From contig JAVLRN010000005.1 of NCBI GenBank assembly GCA_032821775.1, forward strand, positions 2,356,001 to 2,420,000: a DNA stretch of 64,000 bases, given 5' to 3'. Origin of the DNA: Sanguinoderma infundibulare (Eukaryota > Basidiomycota > Agaricomycetes > Polyporales > Polyporaceae). Below, piece by piece: positions 7,042 through 63,049 of the stretch. The notes below the pieces were generated by a model. It did not search any database. It had not been told where the DNA came from and saw only the letters and a list, made by a program, of their open reading frames with translations. The stretch's first letter is position 1. Every line of letters starts with the position of its first letter. The translations under genes were made by a program, and so were the position numbers.

Positions 7042-8607
7042 TCACCGATTAAACGAAAGCAGAGACATGTCGCCCAATTTCCTAGAGAGGCACGCGCACG
7101 CGAACGTGAGAAGACGGTAACAAGCGAAACGTGAAGATGAGAACGAACCTGGGCTTGACGAGATGCCTAATGGTACCGAGGATACCGAGAAGAACGAGGA
7201 GACCGGCGGCGGCAACGTACGCCCATCCGAGGAACGGGTTCTTGCCACCAATCCAAGAGACTGACGAGATCACGATCGATTTCGTGCCCTTGTATGGACG
7301 TACAGGGTAGTCTGCAACACTCGTGAGTATCAATACTCCCGCAGGAGCAGGAGGGTATATACTCACTCAGGCTGACAACGATCTGGTAGCGGCCCTTGGG
7401 AAGCTGCGCGCCGTCGTTCCGTCCCCAGAGCTTCGTGAAGGTGGGGAGACCGGCAGTGCGCATCCAGTTCTGGAAGTGCTCGTCGGCCTTCAAGTCTGGG
7501 GGAGGAGTGCTGTTCGTGTAGCCGTTTGGGAATCGCGACTGCCAGTTGGGCGGGGGAGCAATCTCCGAGAGCTGGTAGTTGGGAGATGAGGTGTACTTCT
7601 TGGACTCTCCCGGCCAGGCGATGCCGCTCTGGGACCAGTTGTACGTTGTTCCTGAACCGGTTGTGTCCGAAGGCATTGTCAAGTTGGAGAACGTGTCTAG
7701 GGTGCCGGTTTCAACGGTCGTGTGAGGATGAGCGCGGGCCGAAGGGGACGAAGCAAGAAGCGCGGTGGGACGTCATTGAGGGGACAGATGTAAGAGAAGG
7801 ACGCACCGTTGAAGACCGAGTTGGCAATGAGGCCGCAAGGGTAGATAATCTTGTTGCCAACGACATCCAACGGCTTGCAGTCGCCACCCTTGATGGTGTT
7901 GAAGCTAACGTGGTCGCCACGAAGCTGGTTCTGGTTGAGACTCTTGACATATCGACGGTGGTTCTGGTAGAAGTTGGTGAGCTTGTAGTAGAGCAGGACG
8001 GGGGCGTCGATGTTTGCAGGGACATCGAATTGAATGACGCATTGGCGGGCGGTGTCGTTGGAAACGCCGTCTGTACCAGTCTGATCGAGGAAGGCGTATT
8101 GTGGAGTGGAGATGGCTGCGCCTGAGTCTGAGGCGCGGAGCTTGTAGGTGTACTGGGAGGAGGGGATGTCGGTTAGGTTGGAGACGGAGGCGGAGGAAAC
8201 GTTTTGAGACGACAGGAGCTCGCAGTCGGTATAGTCGATGTCAATCTCGGTGACCTGTTTGAATTGGACGAGGGATGGTTAGAAAGAGCAGCTGGGAGGA
8301 GTGGAAGTGATATTTGGACGCACCAGACTACTACCCCAGATGAGGAGAGCACCGATGGGAGCGAAGAGAATGCCGACGATGAAAAGGGTCGGAAGAACGG
8401 TGCGAGGGGTAAGGATGGGCTGCCATGCCTTGAGCCGCTGTTGCTTGAAGGCGGTGTCTATAAAAGTCAAACGTCGGACAGGTTATGGCTCAAGCCGTGC
8501 ATTCATCACACCGTCGGACGGCACTCACTGGCTGGTCTCCGCCAGCTGCCCTTCTCCTTCTTGGCTGCCTCGTCGTCGCCACTCTTCTTGCGATTGAAGA
8601 GACCCAT
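7042..8607 (-). CDS. CDC50: CDC50/LEM3-family P4-ATPase (flippase) beta subunit, copy 1
   Basis: CDC50/LEM3 proteins pair with P4-ATPases and are needed for their folding, exit from the ER and phospholipid flipping. The ATG ending at 8607 begins MGLFNRKKSGDDEAAKKE, then WRRPAS. The first membrane span is RTVLPTLFIVGILFAPIGA. The lumenal domain has the family motifs CVIQFDVPANIDAPVLLYY, KLTNFYQNHRRYVKS, PCGLIANSVFN and NWMRTAGLPTFTKLWGRND. The second span follows WIGGKNPFLGWAYV. The last intron splits an Arg codon: KPR is joined to KLGDMSLLSFNR, and the stop is at 7042-7044. The gene is intact, with several introns. It is in tandem with a second copy about 2.8 kb upstream; the module array lies between them. 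Confidence 0.93.
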
Positions 8608-9249
8608 GGAGGACGAAACTAGTGCGAGAGTAGCGAAACCAGTTCAGCGACGAGAGAAGGAAGCGAGGCCAGCCGTGATGAAGGGAAGGACGTGGACGAA
8701 GCCAAAGGCAGCTGAGAGCGATGTAGAGGCGATGTCCGTCGCCGGCGCCGGTGCGACAACCCCCGCCCATCCCTTTCCCTTGGGCGCCCCGGACCGCGCT
8801 CGCGTAAGCATGCTTCCTCATCCCACAAGTCCCACTCCATGAACAGTAATCCGTCCACGCGTACAGTGGTGTCAGCTCCAGCGCAGATTAATATACTTTC
8901 TCAGAAGTCACTACTAGGCGGTGTTTTTGTCTCACTGACCCGTCAGTCCTGGTCTATTTAATAAACATACTTCGATTATGGGGAGTCCCTGCTGGTCCAT
9001 TGATCGTAGCCTGAGGCAAGTTATAACGTATAAGAAATACCGAAACAACATTTGCTTGGAGAATCTATCAATACTGTCGGCCTCCCACCGTCGGCCGCCG
9101 TCAGCCTCTGTGCACGGACAGACGATCGGCAAGCCTCAGCACACGATCCATGGACAGGTCCTGGTCAGCCTCCGCCGAAGTGAGCGTTGGGGACAGCCCC
9201 GGCGTACCGAACACCAGGCCGCCAGGTCTGCCAGCCACCAGGATGGGAG
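8608..9249. other. Intergenic region upstream of CDC50 copy 1
   Basis: This should contain the minus-strand promoter of CDC50 copy 1 and, at its right end, the upstream part of the plus-strand unit that runs through the module array. An AT-rich patch lies at about 8885-9060. No coding gene is seen. Confidence 0.5.
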
Positions 9250-9257
9250 TATAAGAG
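9250..9257 (+). promoter_or_regulatory. TATA-like element upstream of the module array
   Basis: TATAAGAG sits about 250 bp upstream of the first splice-donor-like repeat. It is followed by a pyrimidine-rich stretch typical of fungal transcription start regions. It is the best candidate promoter for a plus-strand transcript through the array. This is inference from sequence only. Confidence 0.4.
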
Positions 9258-9279
9258 CCCGTCCGCTCGCGGTCTCCTG

Positions 9280-11230
9280 CTCACCACAAACCACCATCTT
9301 CCCCAGCTTCGACCTCCGCTTCGAAATCCCCCGGCTCATCCTTCACTGTCCTCTGCTCCACATCCTCCACGACCAGGCACAGCGCAAGCAACTGGCTACG
9401 CACACGGACTCCCATCTTTCATGCTCGTTTCGTTCGCTCACCCTGCCAACCAAAGCCTTCAATCGACCACGCTTGTCATGGAGGCCTGTAGACGTCGTTC
9501 AAGGTGAGTACCTGCAAATTCGGGTCTCACCAGGGTTCAAGATGGTCTCCAAGCACCGCCACTGAGAACAGACGCTGCAGAACATCGCGTCGGGTCCTCG
9601 TGTTAGCCAACGGTTGTCAGCCGCTGGAGTGCATTGAGGTGAGTACCGACTGCAAGTTAGGGTCTCACCAGCGTTCAAGATGGTCTTCAAGAGCGGTCGC
9701 TGAGAACAGATGTCCACAGGTCGCCCGGATGGTTAGCTGTTCGTTGCAAGGAACGGTGAGTACTGCAAGTTAGGTCTCACCAGCGTTCAAGAGCGTCCCA
9801 AGTGCCGTCGCTGAGGACAGATACTTTACAGCCATCGTTCGACGCTCGCGTTCGGTTTCGCATCAAAAACAGGTGAGTACTCCAAAATGGGGTCTCACCA
9901 GCGTTCAAGAGGGTCTTCAAGCGTCCACAGATAGGTCGGATGGCGGTCGTCGTTCGTTCTGAAGCAACAGTGAGTACTTCAAGTTAGGGTCTCACCAGCG
10001 TTCAAGATGGTCTTCAAGCGCCGCGCTGAGAACAGTTATTACAGGGCGTCATTTGCTCGTCGCCAACCAGCGAGGTTCATTCGAGGTGAGCACTGCAAAA
10101 TAAGGGTCTCACCAGCGTCCAAGAAGGTTTCAAGCACCGCCGCTGAGGACAGATGCCACACAGGCCGTTTCGGATCGCGGGTCATCGGTCGCCCGAGAGG
10201 TGAGTACCACGGGTGCCGCCGCTGACAGCCGAATCGCACAGACGATGATGTCGACGCTCGCGTTCGATTTGGAATCGCAAGCCAGGTGAGTACTGAAAGA
10301 TGGGGTCTCACCAGCGTTCAAAGGGTCTTCAAGCGCCACCGCTGAGAACAGATACTGTACAGGTCGTTCGGATAGTAGTCAGGTTCGTTCATGGAATGGT
10401 GAGTACTGCAAGTTAGGGTCTCACCAGCGTTCAAGAGGGTCTTCAAGCGCCACCGCTGAGAACAGATACTGCAGAACATCGCATGCCAGTCAGCGAGGTT
10501 CGTTCGAGGTGAGTACTGCAAGATAGGGTCTCACCACGGTTCAAGAAGGTTCCAAGCACCGCCGCTGAGGACAGATGCCACACAGGTCGGTCGGATCGCG
10601 GGTCGTCGTCCGTCGTCGTTCGTTCGAAGGGTGAGCACCGCAAGTTTAGGTCTCACCAGCGCTCAAGAAGGTCCCAATTGCCGCCGCTGACAGTGAGGCC
10701 AATGCTCGCGTTCTGGTCGGGGTCGCAACCAGGTGAGTACTGCAAGTTGAGGTCTCACCAGCGTTCAAGTTCCAAGCACCGCCGCTGAAAACAGACGCCG
10801 CACAGGTCGTCTGGCTGGCTTCTTGTGACAACAACTCGGGGGTGAATACTGCGAGAGTCTCACCAGAGCCCCAAGGGATCAAGACGGTCCGAAGAACGGA
10901 TGCTTCTGCGGCAGGCCACACATATTCGACGAATCTGGACAACTATGTGAGTACTGCAAATTACGGTCTCACTAGCGTTCAAGAGGGTCCCAACACCGCC
11001 GCTGAGAACAGATACCGCACAGGACGTCCATGTGATGAACACGCACCGCGCCGTGGCTTTACGCAGACGGATTAAAGGTGAGCGACCTCGCTGATTCGTT
11101 CCTCGCCGAGCTCTCCGCCTCTCGATGTCTCGTTGTGTATGTCCCAGTGTCTGCCAACATTTCCAGAAAATGCATGTGTGACGCACCAGACCGATGGCTG
11201 AACCACTGAACCGTTTGACAATGAGAGAGA
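9280..11230 (+). ncRNA. Putative multi-intron transcript across the module array, coding status unknown
   Basis: If the TATA-like element at 9250 is used, a plus-strand transcript would cross 14-15 successive GTGAGT-type donors, each followed 42-81 nt later by a CAG acceptor with a CTGA branch-like motif. Donors lie at 9504, 9639, 9756, 9873, 9970, 10086, 10200, 10286, 10399, 10509, 10631, 10733, 10842, 10947 and 11078. The mini-exons are 32-58 nt long and mostly not multiples of three. An ATG at 9478 stays open through the first three spliced mini-exons (about 60 codons) and then meets a stop at the fourth. No long frame runs through all units, so a noncoding or decayed transcript is more likely than a protein. 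The span ends are approximate and transcription itself is unproven. Confidence 0.35.
9504..11077 (+). repeat. Tandem array of about 14 intron-like modules (about 110 bp each)
   Basis: The modules are degenerate tandem repeats with periods of 86-135 bp. A consensus unit begins GTGAGTACTGCAAGTTAGGG, then TCTCACCAGCGTTCAAGA, a second CTTCAAG, CCGCTGAGAACAG and a final CAG 10-16 nt later. A 32-58 bp variable segment then leads to the next GTGAGT. Most intron-like parts are 73-81 bp; units 4, 7 and 11 are shortened to 58, 42 and 63 bp. The variable segments fall into three types in the order A-B-C-B, giving a higher-order period of about 410-465 bp. The array lies between two CDC50 paralogues and does not resemble their introns. 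It has no transposon ends or open frame I can recognise. Confidence 0.9.
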
Positions 11231-11449
11231 CTTGTACACGCCGTTCCTTAAGCGCGGGTATCATTCCACATTCATCCACAACAGTATCACAACAACATGT
11301 TGTTCCAGCGTCACGATATCATCCGTCTCTCCTACACCAAATGTGGCACTGTTCTCCATTCGAGGGACCATGAGAAGCGACACCCCATCAACAGTCAGCC
11401 CGGCACTCACCTCAATATCCGTACAGAGACTACAAGCGAATAAAGACCG
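11078..11449. other. Region between the module array and CDC50 copy 2
   Basis: This begins with a last GTGAGC donor at 11078 and a possible acceptor (TTTCCAG) near 11165, so it could hold the final intron and exon of the array transcript. The rest is the 3' flank of CDC50 copy 2. No coding gene is seen. Confidence 0.4.
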
Positions 11450-12975
11450 TCATCGGGTGAATGAGAGCTTCGAAGGATCGCCCAGTTTCCTGCGTGAACA
11501 ATCTTAGCAATTATGGAATCACATGTCCGCCTCAAACACAAACCTCGGCTTAATGCAGTTAACAATGGCGACGACGAAACCAAGGAGGAGTAGAAGGCTA
11601 GAACCGGCGACGTAAGCCCACCCGAGGAAGGGGTTCTTGCCACCCATCCAGCCAGCAGACGAGATGACGATGCTCTTCTTTCCGCTGTACGCCTTCACCG
11701 GGAAATCTAACGGCAATTGTCGACGCTCGATCCCGTAGCACCAACTAGCAGTAGCACTCACTGAGATTGATGATCATCTGATAGCGGCCCTTGGCGAGGC
11801 CGGCGGTGTCGTTGCGGCCCCAGAGCTTGCTGAACGTCGGGAGGCCGGCGGTGCGCATCCAGTTCTGGAAGTGCTCGTCGGTCTTGAGGTCGGGTAGGTT
11901 GTCGCCCGTGTAGCCGTCCGGGAAGCGTTCGATCCAGAACGGCGGGGGCACGATCTCGGAGACGTCGTATCCGGGAGTGGTGACATATTTATTCGCCTCG
12001 CCCGGCCACGCAATGTTCTTCTCTGACCAGAGGTATGTCGAGTTCGTGTCCGAGTCGTCTGTCTTGGTTAAATTCGTGAATGTGTCTGTGCGTCCGGTGA
12101 CGTCCGACAGTATGAGCACAAGCGCGTTCGAGAACTGATGATGCGGAAACGGTCTATGGGCACGCACCATTGAACATCGAGTTCGCAATCATGCCGCACG
12201 GGTAGATGACCTTGCCGTCGAGCTTGTCGAGCGGTGTGCAGTCGCTCGACAGGTCGGAGTTGCTCGGGGTCTTTCCCAGGAGCTGCTCCAGGCTGACGCT
12301 CTTGGAGTACCGACGGTGGTTCTGGTAGAAGTTGGAGAGCTTGTAGTAGAGCATCACCGGGGGCTTGATGTCTGCGGGCACGTCGAACCACAGGACGCAC
12401 TGCTTCGCGGTCGCGTTCGTGACGTCGTCGGCACCGGTGCGGTCGAGGTACGAGTACTGCGGGGGGTCGATGTACGCGTCGGATTTGGAGTTGACGACGC
12501 TCATCTTGTAGGTGTACTCTGATGAGGAGAGGTTGGAGCGGATGAGGTTGCTGTAGGTGTATGTGGCATTCTGGCCACCCTGGGAGTCGCAGTTGGTGTA
12601 TTCGATGTCTATCTCGGTTACCTGGGGAAGCAAAGGGACAGGAAGCGTTGGTTAGTCGAAGATGGTGGTGGAAGGAGATGAGAGCATACGAGGGTGCTGC
12701 CCCAGATGAGGAGACCGCCGATGGGGGCGAGGATGATTCCCACGGTGAGCAGAGTCGGGAGGACGGTGCGGGGGATAAAGAGAGGGTGCCATGCTCGCAG
12801 TCGCTGCTGCCTGAATGCGCTATCTGACGAGGTTGTAAGTAAGTCATGATTCGTGTCAGATCGCGAGACCCGTGCGGTCGTCAAGGTGCCTACTTGTCGG
12901 TTTCCGCCAGTTGCCCTTCTCTTGCTTGGCCTCCTCACTGGTCTCACCGGCTCGTTTCCGACGACCGAAAGCCAT
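11450..12975 (-). CDS. CDC50: CDC50/LEM3-family P4-ATPase (flippase) beta subunit, copy 2
   Basis: This is a paralogue of the gene at 7042-8607 with the same role as a P4-ATPase partner. The ATG ending at 12975 starts MAFGRRKRAGETSEEAKQE and NWRKPTS. The first span is RTVLPTLLTVGIILAPIGG. The lumenal domain has VLWFDVPADIKPPVMLYY, KLSNFYQNHRRYSKS, PCGMIANSMFN and NWMRTAGLPTFSKLWGRND. The second span follows WMGGKNPFLGWAYV. As in copy 1, the last intron splits the Arg codon of KPR and joins it to KLGDPSKLSFTR, with the stop at 11450-11452. Conserved gene structure and order point to tandem duplication. Both copies look intact, so they may pair with different flippases or be expressed differently. 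Confidence 0.93.
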
Positions 12976-60536: not shown

Positions 60537-63049
60537 CTACTCTTCGGCCCAACGAGGCAACCACTCCTCCCAACCAGCCCATTCATCATGCTCCTCGCGA
60601 GCCAACCCCTCGCCTTCGTCTTCGTGGCCATGGCCATGGTGCGCTTTCTTGAGCGGATTCAGGACCTTGTCGATCACATGGATTGCACCATTGCGCGCAG
60701 GGACGTCGGCGACAGAGACTGGCTGGCCGTGAGCGAAGACGACCGTCTTGTAGAACGTGTGCTTCTCGTGGTGCTCGTTCGCGAAAGGAAGCTTGAACGC
60801 AAGTTGAACAATATTCACATTCAAGGGAACCCCTTCGAGACGTGTGGGCACCGTGGCGTTGATGGAGTAAACGACTTCAGGGCGGTGGTGACGATGGCCC
60901 CCAAATGGCGGGGGTGGAGGTGGAGGCGGGGGCGGTGGAGGGAAATGATGGGGAGGAGGGGGAGCATGAGGGAAATGAGGGGGAGGGGGAGGGGGCGGGG
61001 GAGGAGCGTGAGGGAAGTGATGAGGAGGCGGAGGAGGCGGAGGAGCGTGAGGGAAATGATGGGGGCCGTCAGGCGGAGGATGAGGGAAATGATGGGGACC
61101 CTCAGGCGGAGGGGGAAGATGGTAATGCGGGAAATGGTGTGGACCTGGTGGTGGAGGCGGGGGAGGCGGAGGAGGAGGCCCATGGAACGGCGGGAACGGA
61201 GGAGGGCCGAACCCGCGAGGAGCTTCCCCATGCTCGTACGCCCAGTCGCCCTTCTCATACCCGTGCTCACGCTCAGAGTGACCATATCCCTGCTCCACAG
61301 CCTCCTCACCCATCGCGAACCAGTCCTCAGCATGATGGCCGAGATGCTCGTAGAATTGGCTGGTCGCGGCATCGTACTGAGACGGAACGAACACGGGATG
61401 GGACGCGTTGTGGAAGTAGTCTACGAAAATGTGAGTCAATAATGCGAAAAAGCCAAGTATGAACGCATCGGAAGCGTACCCGAGTGCAACGCAGCGCCAG
61501 GGACGATGTGGAACTGCAGAAGCTTCAACAGGGCTTTCTCCCCGAACGGCGAGAAAAGGTAAAACTTGAGCTTGGGCGGCAGCCGGGCGAACGCCTTGTT
61601 CGTGGGCACGAAGGCGGAGGTGATGGGCGAACCCGCGTGCAAAGGGCCCGTGACGCGATAGTAGTCAACGGCATCCGTCAGTCCGACTCGCTGAAGGGCT
61701 GAGCTCTGTGCACTATACATCAGCACTCTGCTTCCAAGCGAATCCATCGCGAAAGATCTTACAAAGGTGGAGAAATGGTCGGAGAGAAGGAATGCGGTCT
61801 GGAAGATCGAAGGAGGGGGAAGGACAGGTCTGCTGACGACGTGAATCGCACCTGTGGACACGCGTCAGATCGTGCGCGCACATGTTGAAAACGACTTTCG
61901 TATTCCACTCACCATTCTTGACCGGGATATCAGGGACCAAAACCTTCGAGATGAAGTTGACGGTGGGCCGCGGGTCGAAGCCGACGCCCTTCCCGAAGCG
62001 GATGCGGAGCGGCTCGCCATGCAGGGACCCATCCTCGAGCTTAAGCGACGTCGCGAACGTGCTGTTCTTCCTCAGCTCGTGCAGGGGCGTGTGCTCGGGC
62101 AGGATGTTGTAGAGGAGCGCGTACTTGATGAACTGCTTGATCTTGTCCTCATCGGGCTTGCGGGCGCTGTTGGTGTTCAGGTAGCCTTCGGCGATGGCGA
62201 GCACATCCCCAAGGTCGCTTTCGGTCTGGAAGAGGTCCTCCAGCTCGACGTCTTCATCCTTGCCGGGGTAACGAGGAGGCTTCGGGAAGCCAGAGTCGGG
62301 GAGGGCGAAGAACGTGACGCTGCGGATGAGGAGTAAGTTACGCTCGTTTTGCGTGATGTCCAAGACCGCACTGGTGCTCACCTCTGCGAGGAATCGTTGA
62401 GATAGTTCGTGACGTCCTCGGTATAGTTCACGAGCTTAAAGAGACGTGAGAACCTAGACTTATGTGGTTAGTCACGAGGGCATGCAACTTGGGCGGGGAT
62501 CGCGCAGTACCTGGGATGACTCTCCAAGAACTGGTAGATGGTCTTGTCCTTCGTGTCGGGACCAGGCTTTGGGAAATGCGGAGGATGAGGGAAGTGGTGC
62601 GGTTCTTTGGGAGGGCTAGGCGGCCTAGGATGACCGGGAGGCCCAGGAGCCCCGGGAGGAGGGTGCGGAGGCCCTGGGTGCTGGGGCGGCTGCGGTGGCC
62701 ACTGAGGGGGTTTAGGGCCCTTGTGCGGCGGCTCAGGCCAGTGCTCGTGGTCACCACCCGGGAAGTGAATGGGCTTCTGGTCCTCCGGATAGCGAGGTTG
62801 CGTGTCCAAGATCTGTTGGTCACCCTCATGGGTCCACTCCCAAGCATTGTCGAAGTCCGCAACCGCGCCGTGTTGTACATGGTAAGAACGATGGTCGGAG
62901 TTGATCAGTTCGGTGTCCTCCACGTCCCAGGGCCTGCCCAGGACATGCCCGGGGCGGGCAGAGACGAGGAGTCCACCGTACACCACCGCGAGGATGGTGT
63001 GCAGGAGCAGCATGGTGGAACAAGGTTGGAAGAAGGCTCGGGGTCTCAT
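60537..63049 (-). CDS. FAS1 (fasciclin) domain protein with Pro/His-rich insertions
   Basis: FAS1 domains mediate adhesion and occur in secreted or surface fungal proteins. The ATG ending at 63049 gives MRPRAFFQPCSTMLLLHTIL, then AVVYGGLLVSARP as a signal sequence (ATG 63013 is an alternative start). A Pro-rich linker with HFPHPPHFPKPGP follows. The first FAS1 domain has FALLYNILPEHTPLHELR-type sequence and INFISKVLVPDIPVKNG. The second has PTNKAFARLPPKLKFYLFSP, LLKLLQFHIVPGAALH and NGAIHVIDKVLNPLKKAHHG. Between its HIVPG half and its VLNPL end lies an insertion of about 100 residues (DNA 60910-61220) made almost only of Pro, His, Phe, Gly and Ala. It ends WEEWLPRWAEE, with the stop at 60537-60539. 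No clear GPI signal is seen. It may be secreted or vacuolar. Confidence 0.85.
60910..61220 (-). repeat. Pro/His-rich low-complexity coding repeat inside the FAS1 gene
   Basis: Imperfect short repeats encode HHFPHAPPPPPP-type units within the second FAS1 domain of the gene at 60537-63049. The DNA is highly purine/pyrimidine skewed (GGAGG-rich on the plus strand) and likely to vary in length. Confidence 0.85.

Follow-up and report, generated by a model that had tools for sequence, protein, structure and literature searches.

A duplicated tandem array of intron-like modules in Sanguinoderma infundibulare as a candidate serially spliced noncoding RNA gene

Introduction

Can a gene be made up of little else than tandem copies of a single intron? 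The question is raised by a locus of the basidiomycete Sanguinoderma infundibulare (assembly of 48.9 Mb in 87 contigs), lying in the 64,000-nt stretch C5:2356001-2420000, which we call the window. An earlier note on this DNA had described a tandem array of about 14 modules at 9504..11077, each made of an intron-like unit and a mini-exon, and had proposed a spliced noncoding RNA grown by unequal crossing-over or, among other readings, introner-like DNA. No gene of such layout is described among the matches listed in the open-licence PMC literature. On balance, and with moderate confidence, we favour the reading that this array (A) and a sister array (B) represent a duplicated, serially spliced noncoding RNA gene which grew by unequal exchange and in which the intron would be the constrained part.

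Layout of array A

Sequence reading and a listing of donors over 8500-12500 place array A at 9504-11077 of the window, on the plus strand, with 14 modules that each carry a donor of the GTGA type, in agreement with the earlier note. The 14 donors lie at 9504-10947, spaced 86-135 nt from one another. The intron part is 73-81 nt long, as had been claimed for most units, in 11/14 modules; acceptors were placed by hand, mostly at the second AG past CTGA. The exceptions are A4 (58 nt), A7 (42 nt) and A11, which is without an acceptor. The variable segment of 32-58 nt said to follow each intron part is likewise found in the 13 modules whose exon can be delimited. It is important to note that the acceptors of A11 and B12 were either set by hand or counted as absent, and that the setting for A11 differed among the same-position, spliced-ORF, exon-class and kinship analyses. 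Tandem Repeats Finder caught only the best part of the array, 10284-10576, with a period of 110.

A putative leader exon would extend over 9283..9503, its start being put about 30 nt past the TATA box. On the plus strand, the intron-like part A1 (9504..9580) is followed by mini-exon 1 (9581..9638), A2 (9639..9719) by mini-exon 2 (9720..9755) and A3 (9756..9831) by mini-exon 3 (9832..9872), which are of exon classes X, Y and Z, respectively. A4 (9873..9930) is 19 nt shorter than its counterpart B4, has no CTGA and an uncertain acceptor, and precedes mini-exon 4 (9931..9969, class Y). Then come A5 (9970..10044) with mini-exon 5 (10045..10085, class X), A6 (10086..10163) with mini-exon 6 (10164..10199, class Y) and the short A7 (10200..10241) with mini-exon 7 (10242..10285, class Z). 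The next units are A8 (10286..10362) and mini-exon 8 (10363..10398, class Y), A9 (10399..10474) and mini-exon 9 (10475..10508, class X), and A10 (10509..10585) and mini-exon 10 (10586..10630, class Y). Module A11 (10631..10732) keeps its donor and CTGAC, has no AG 15-17 nt downstream and ends in CAG, immediately before the next donor. A12 (10733..10805) leads to mini-exon 12 (10806..10841), whose best match is B12; A13 (10842..10914), divergent and without CTGA, leads to mini-exon 13 (10915..10946), and A14 (10947..11022) to exon 14 (11023..11077), all three exons being unclassed. A trailing donor, GTGAGCG (11078..11084), is followed by unrelated sequence, and AATAAA at 11439..11444 is a candidate 3'-end signal.

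Splice signals

Taking A and B together, the donor has GT in 28/28 modules, GTGAG in 26/28 and GTGAGT in 24/28, and CTGA is present in 26/28. An AG stands 15-17 nt past the branch A in 22 of the 26 modules with CTGA; a nearer AG, at 6 nt, is also present in 19/26, and for this reason the acceptor is uncertain. CTGAG is a weaker branch site than CTGAC, and CTGAG is the form found in most modules. For the whole pattern GTGAGT..CTGA..AG the window has 17 occurrences, two of which overlap, and nine lie in array A; 2.98 are expected in the window from whole-window shuffles, and 0/100 shuffles reach 17. The base preceding the donor is G in 24/28 modules. In the 20/28 modules that could be aligned over the hairpin (A2, A4, A7, A13, B7, B10, B11 and B13 were left out), donor and branch columns are conserved above random column sets of equal size (60/20,000 as high), as is the TCTCAC arm (38/20,000 as high), and the longest invariant run is 6 columns (shuffle P 0.057); these statistics are descriptive only, since homologous modules are not independent. 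Three introns were located in the neighbouring RNA-cyclase gene, too few for a splice-site model.

Could these motifs be there by chance? The main rival to our reading, which we consider unlikely, is a plain minisatellite whose repeat unit happens to contain splice-like motifs, which was duplicated once and which is untranscribed or unspliced. Because the donor and TCTCAC are able to pair, conservation of GTGAG might reflect a feature of the DNA or of a hairpin. Indeed, the minus strand of array A has 13 GTGAG and 0 GTGAGT, because the intron carries CTCAC, the complement of the donor. Moreover, signals are damaged in 6/28 modules: CTGA is absent from A4 and A13, and the AG at 15-17 nt from A11, B7, B10 and B12. 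A minisatellite does not, however, account well for the short introns A7, B7 and B10, from which the hairpin region is absent and in which the GTGAGTACC donor and CTGAC are retained (in A7 the acceptor too). It also does not predict that AG precedes the donor in 20/28 modules across dissimilar exon classes, nor that the acceptor AG keeps its 15-17 nt distance despite differing surroundings.

The ends of some modules are worth describing separately. All class Z modules (6/6) have CAG at the end with a GTGAGT donor immediately after it. B7 and B10 have CGG in place of the usual acceptor, so that the CAG of the junction provides the only AG remaining, and in A11 the only AGs left nearby are 3 and 7 nt from the branch. 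A zero-length exon or a recursive splice site is possible at such class Z junctions (A11; B7 and B10), judging from the arrangement of the motifs.

A sister array and the confinement of the unit

A whole-genome search with array A revealed the sister array B at C5:2334595-2336131, on the minus strand, about 29 kb from A and inverted relative to it. The match falls into two pieces of 77% and 73% identity, and reading of its sequence gives 14 modules for B as well.

No copies of the unit outside A and B were found in the 48.9 Mb genome with the unit and two donor-hairpin patterns as queries. The 114-nt unit has 23/23 of its matches within the two arrays, the donor-hairpin pattern 18/18 (reversed control 1) and a 26-nt pattern, with at most 3 mismatches allowed, 15/15 (control 0), all counts being lower bounds. 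The search for dispersed copies that the earlier note had put forward thus ends inside the arrays, and the introner-like spread it had considered finds no support. An 18-nt core, allowing up to 3 mismatches, gives 84 places in the genome, 21 of them in the arrays (0-2 mismatches). Outside there is one place with 2 mismatches (C12) and 62 with 3; these 63 are more than the 29 of the reversed control, but a core of 18 nt is not long enough for claiming dispersed copies. A covariance model run over 92.5 kb returned 28 matches to E = 10. Of these, 25 have E < 0.03 and every one is an array module; of the other three, one lies in array A with E 1.6, and L006, between the arrays, has two (E 7.4 and 7.7).

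Promoter and flanks

Two blocks upstream of the first donor are common to A and B. The upstream block (9166..9236, plus strand), which contains CAGCCTCCGCCGAAGTGA, is 71% identical over 77 columns (blastn A versus B, E 9e-5). The core block (9214..9298, plus strand; 77% over 87 columns, E 8e-12) holds the TATA box, TATAAG at 9250-9255, together with the region where transcription probably starts. In this block TATAAG in A corresponds to TATAAA in B, followed by CCCGTCCGC and ACCACAAACC. The distance from the TATA box to the first donor is 254 nt in A and 292 nt in B.

The similarity of the promoters is based on these local blastn blocks: global alignment with cheap gaps gives 0.81, 0.82 and 0.81 for promoter, leader and tail versus shuffled means of 0.81, 0.80 and 0.79, which is indistinguishable from shuffled sequence. 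In the rest of the leader, blastn of A against B found no significant local similarity beyond the first bases. A genome search with either promoter stretch returned only the query itself and missed even the sister promoter, which makes it too insensitive to judge rarity. A similar promoter upstream of both copies argues for transcription of the plus strand of A and speaks against an inert minisatellite. Array A is presumably transcribed on this strand from its own TATA-type promoter.

Coding potential

A protein-coding gene of microexons with fast-evolving repeats is a further rival reading, which we hold to be very unlikely. Some Z exons do read DARVRF or DARIRF in both arrays, and two spliced ORFs of B reach 115 and 114 aa. 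Nevertheless, with the letters shuffled inside each exon, the longest spliced ORFs of A (73 aa) and B (115 aa) fall within expectation (medians 72 and 69, 95% points 126 and 128). The most open frame differs between the arrays, so that by eye the end of the aligned exon 4 reads VLKQQ in A and RSEAT in B. Paired exons differ in length, B minus A, by -8, -4, +5, 0, +27, -1 and 0, that is, in 4/7 pairs by a number that is not a multiple of 3. A protein database search found no match to E 10 for the read-through ORF of A (3 candidates) or for the spliced ORF of B (2 candidates), its sensitivity being limited by the requirement for shared 5-residue words. A coding function, spliced or read-through, is therefore unsupported by length, by frame and by the absence of relatives. 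The arrays have no conserved reading frame, as for a lncRNA gene.

Exon classes and the divergence of introns and exons

By our assignment, exons A1-A11 have the order X Y Z Y X Y Z Y X Y Z, with A11 assigned to Z from its last part only, and exons B1-B10 the order X Y Z Y X Y Z X Y Z. No class was given to A12-A14 or B11-B14, among which A12 and B12 match each other. The recurrence of a multi-module exon order makes it likely that the arrays grew by unequal exchange.

The earlier note had held the intron part to be much better conserved than the exon part. Between modules this is so: with gaps counted, intron identity is 0.80-0.84 and exon identity 0.46-0.57, reaching 0.68 in same-position A/B exons. 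The claim does not extend to seven same-position A/B pairs compared by substitutions, where introns are 87.2% identical (417/478) and exons 85.7% (234/273) and only gaps are commoner in exons (63 gap positions versus 32 in introns, 19 of the latter being one gap in A4). As these identities are equal, there is no direct sign of stronger recent constraint on the introns, a point in favour of the minisatellite reading.

Kinship tables, computed for 21/28 modules (A4, A7, A13, B7, B10, B11 and B13 were left out), gave gap-free intron identities of 0.856 for same-position A/B modules (n=5 pairs), 0.863 and 0.865 within a class (n=19 and 22) and 0.844 and 0.839 between classes (n=45 each). Over the same kinship groups, gap-free exon identity goes from 0.845 to 0.769 and 0.742 and on to 0.707 and 0.719. 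Introns are no more alike within than between arrays, which argues against recent array-specific homogenisation. From these comparisons, the introns seem to be kept close to a consensus, whether through selection or through exchange between all the copies.

Similar introns lying in unrelated exon sequence could also mean that an introner-like element was inserted repeatedly into one noncoding transcript. The introns are indeed alike, while the identity between exons of different classes (0.46-0.47) is near the shuffled level (0.43), and fungal introner-like elements are described as symmetrical in the available part of PMC8469720. We nevertheless see a slim chance for this explanation: the unit has no copies found beyond A and B, and modules of the same class share exon and intron jointly, as in block duplication.

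One pair of modules behaves differently. B7 and B10 (L004 7402-7317 and 7078-6993, minus strand) have exon parts that are 100% identical over 44 nt and intron parts that are 88% identical. This is the reverse of the general trend and perhaps reflects a recent conversion.

Intron structure and small-RNA content

Pairing between the donor and the CTCAC downstream of it can form helix 1, in which 96.7% of cells are paired (20 modules), and the 5' hairpin GGTGAG/CTCACC is nearly invariant. Double changes are seen in 3 pairs of the hairpin, which is not clearly above shuffles (39/500 have as many). Paired cells amount to 96.3% versus 27.7-51.8% when the partners are slid, but this control is biased towards the structure, which was itself drawn from the sequences. 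When introns were folded singly, 6/7 were no better than their shuffles, A4 alone having a z of -2.0. A hairpin covering the donor is plausible on the basis of this complementarity.

Noncoding snoRNA host genes of the gas5/UHG type have conserved introns and variable exons. If A and B were such hosts, small structured RNAs would be processed from each intron; the contrast between conserved introns and poorly conserved exons has the layout of these genes, and intronic C/D clusters in gas5-like hosts have been reported from Neurospora, as far as the accessible text of PMC2780460 goes. Against such a host speak the introns themselves, which are very short (42-81 nt) and all alike, and the outcome of motif searches. 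The box C motif RTGATGA occurs exactly in none of the 28 introns, with one mismatch in one (B2) and with two mismatches in 27, and Rfam, for box H/ACA as for box C/D snoRNAs, gave no match with E up to 1 on both strands of 8500-12500, around array A. We regard this explanation as very unlikely. ARAGORN in bacterial mode predicted 0 tRNAs in the window.

A model of the locus

The spliced noncoding RNA grown by unequal crossing-over that had first been suggested fits best with the promoter similarity, the lack of coding signs, the recurring exon order and the kept splice signals; the splicing itself, like transcription, the order of duplication and any role of the introns, we infer from such signals. 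According to this model, A and B would be a duplicated RNA polymerase II gene, the plus strand of A being transcribed from a TATA promoter that lies some 250-290 bp upstream. The transcript would start with the leader exon and continue with 14 modules, each a spliceosomal intron of 42-81 nt and a noncoding exon of 32-68 nt, and spliceosomes would take out the introns one by one. The array would have grown by unequal exchange of a multi-module block with exon order XYZY or XYZ, and gene and promoter would have been duplicated together as an inverted copy about 29 kb off. The part held to consensus would be the intron, namely the donor, the TCTCAC arm able to pair with it, and CTGA. If so, selection likely acts on serial efficient splicing or on the excised intron RNA and not on the short string of exons.

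Stable excised introns affect yeast under starvation. A bolder variant, which we regard as rather improbable, is that the locus is an 'intron factory', in which selection acts on the introns of a noncoding gene. A single transcript would bring some 14 strong introns one after another, the donor being covered by a hairpin in most of them, and transcription of A and B would release many excised introns or engage splicing factors, with the dose set via the TATA promoter. All that the exons would do is keep successive splicing events apart.

Should the favoured model of a serially spliced noncoding RNA hold, the gene would be almost wholly one tandemly repeated intron, its exons being noncoding, and few RNA genes are likely to be constructed in this manner. 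Nature would then have provided an experiment on the effects that splicing load, intron RNA or intron structure can have by themselves. Intron gain through the expansion of repeats, so far a matter of a few identical introns within one gene, would in addition be extended to 14 introns of a noncoding gene. Two paralogous arrays allow intron constraint to be separated from exon constraint.

Comparison with known systems

The nearest known case is CNN00420 of Cryptococcus neoformans. According to the available part of PMC2395259, this six-intron gene has identical introns 3, 4 and 5 with EST-supported splicing, and its introns lie inside repeats of about 107 nt that comprise a whole intron and exon ends and vary in number among strains. 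Cryptococcus is also a basidiomycete, and the tandem unit described here (14 + 14 modules) too holds a whole intron-like part and exon ends. The differences are that each array here has 14 modules, that most exons fall into three classes, that there are two copies in opposite orientation, that neither coding evidence nor a kept reading frame was found, and that the arrays are known from sequence signals.

Fungal introner-like elements and sister stwintrons are near-identical spliceosomal introns with internal complementarity, in so far as described in the available portions of PMC8469720 and PMC4457414 (PMC9860276, seen in part, also deals with introners). They have integrated at new positions in different genes, whereas the copies found here all belong to one or the other of two tandem arrays. 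Among the lncRNAs of two brown-rot fungi, 60-65% consist of a single exon and 20-25% of two (PMC6525899, accessible text). Transcripts of our arrays would likewise be noncoding and lie outside protein genes, and about 15 exons would be extreme in comparison with such basidiomycete lncRNAs. The text at hand of PMC4059649 contains neither 'exons' nor 'introns' and speaks neither for nor against multi-intron lncRNA in Ganoderma.

Genomic neighbourhood

Array A is flanked by two CDC50/LEM3-like exons (7700-8278 and 12157-12651, minus strand) that are 56% identical over 156 aa, and a nearby ORF (7170-7772) has a Pfam CDC50 match. Around array B, 0 of the four L004 ORFs scanned matched CDC50. Between the arrays (L005 and L006), ORFs match queuine tRNA-ribosyltransferase, DUF3684 (sacsin-like), alpha-amylase and RNA 3'-phosphate cyclase. 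The exon of the neighbouring cyclase gene is 84% identical to that of Ganoderma leucocontextum and 81% to that of Dichomitus squalens (79% of the query), which puts the host close to these two genera, among the polypore-type basidiomycetes. Elsewhere in the window, at 60911-61112, there are tandem repeats rich in GGA, their units measuring 30-42 nt, which overlap long ORFs on both strands.
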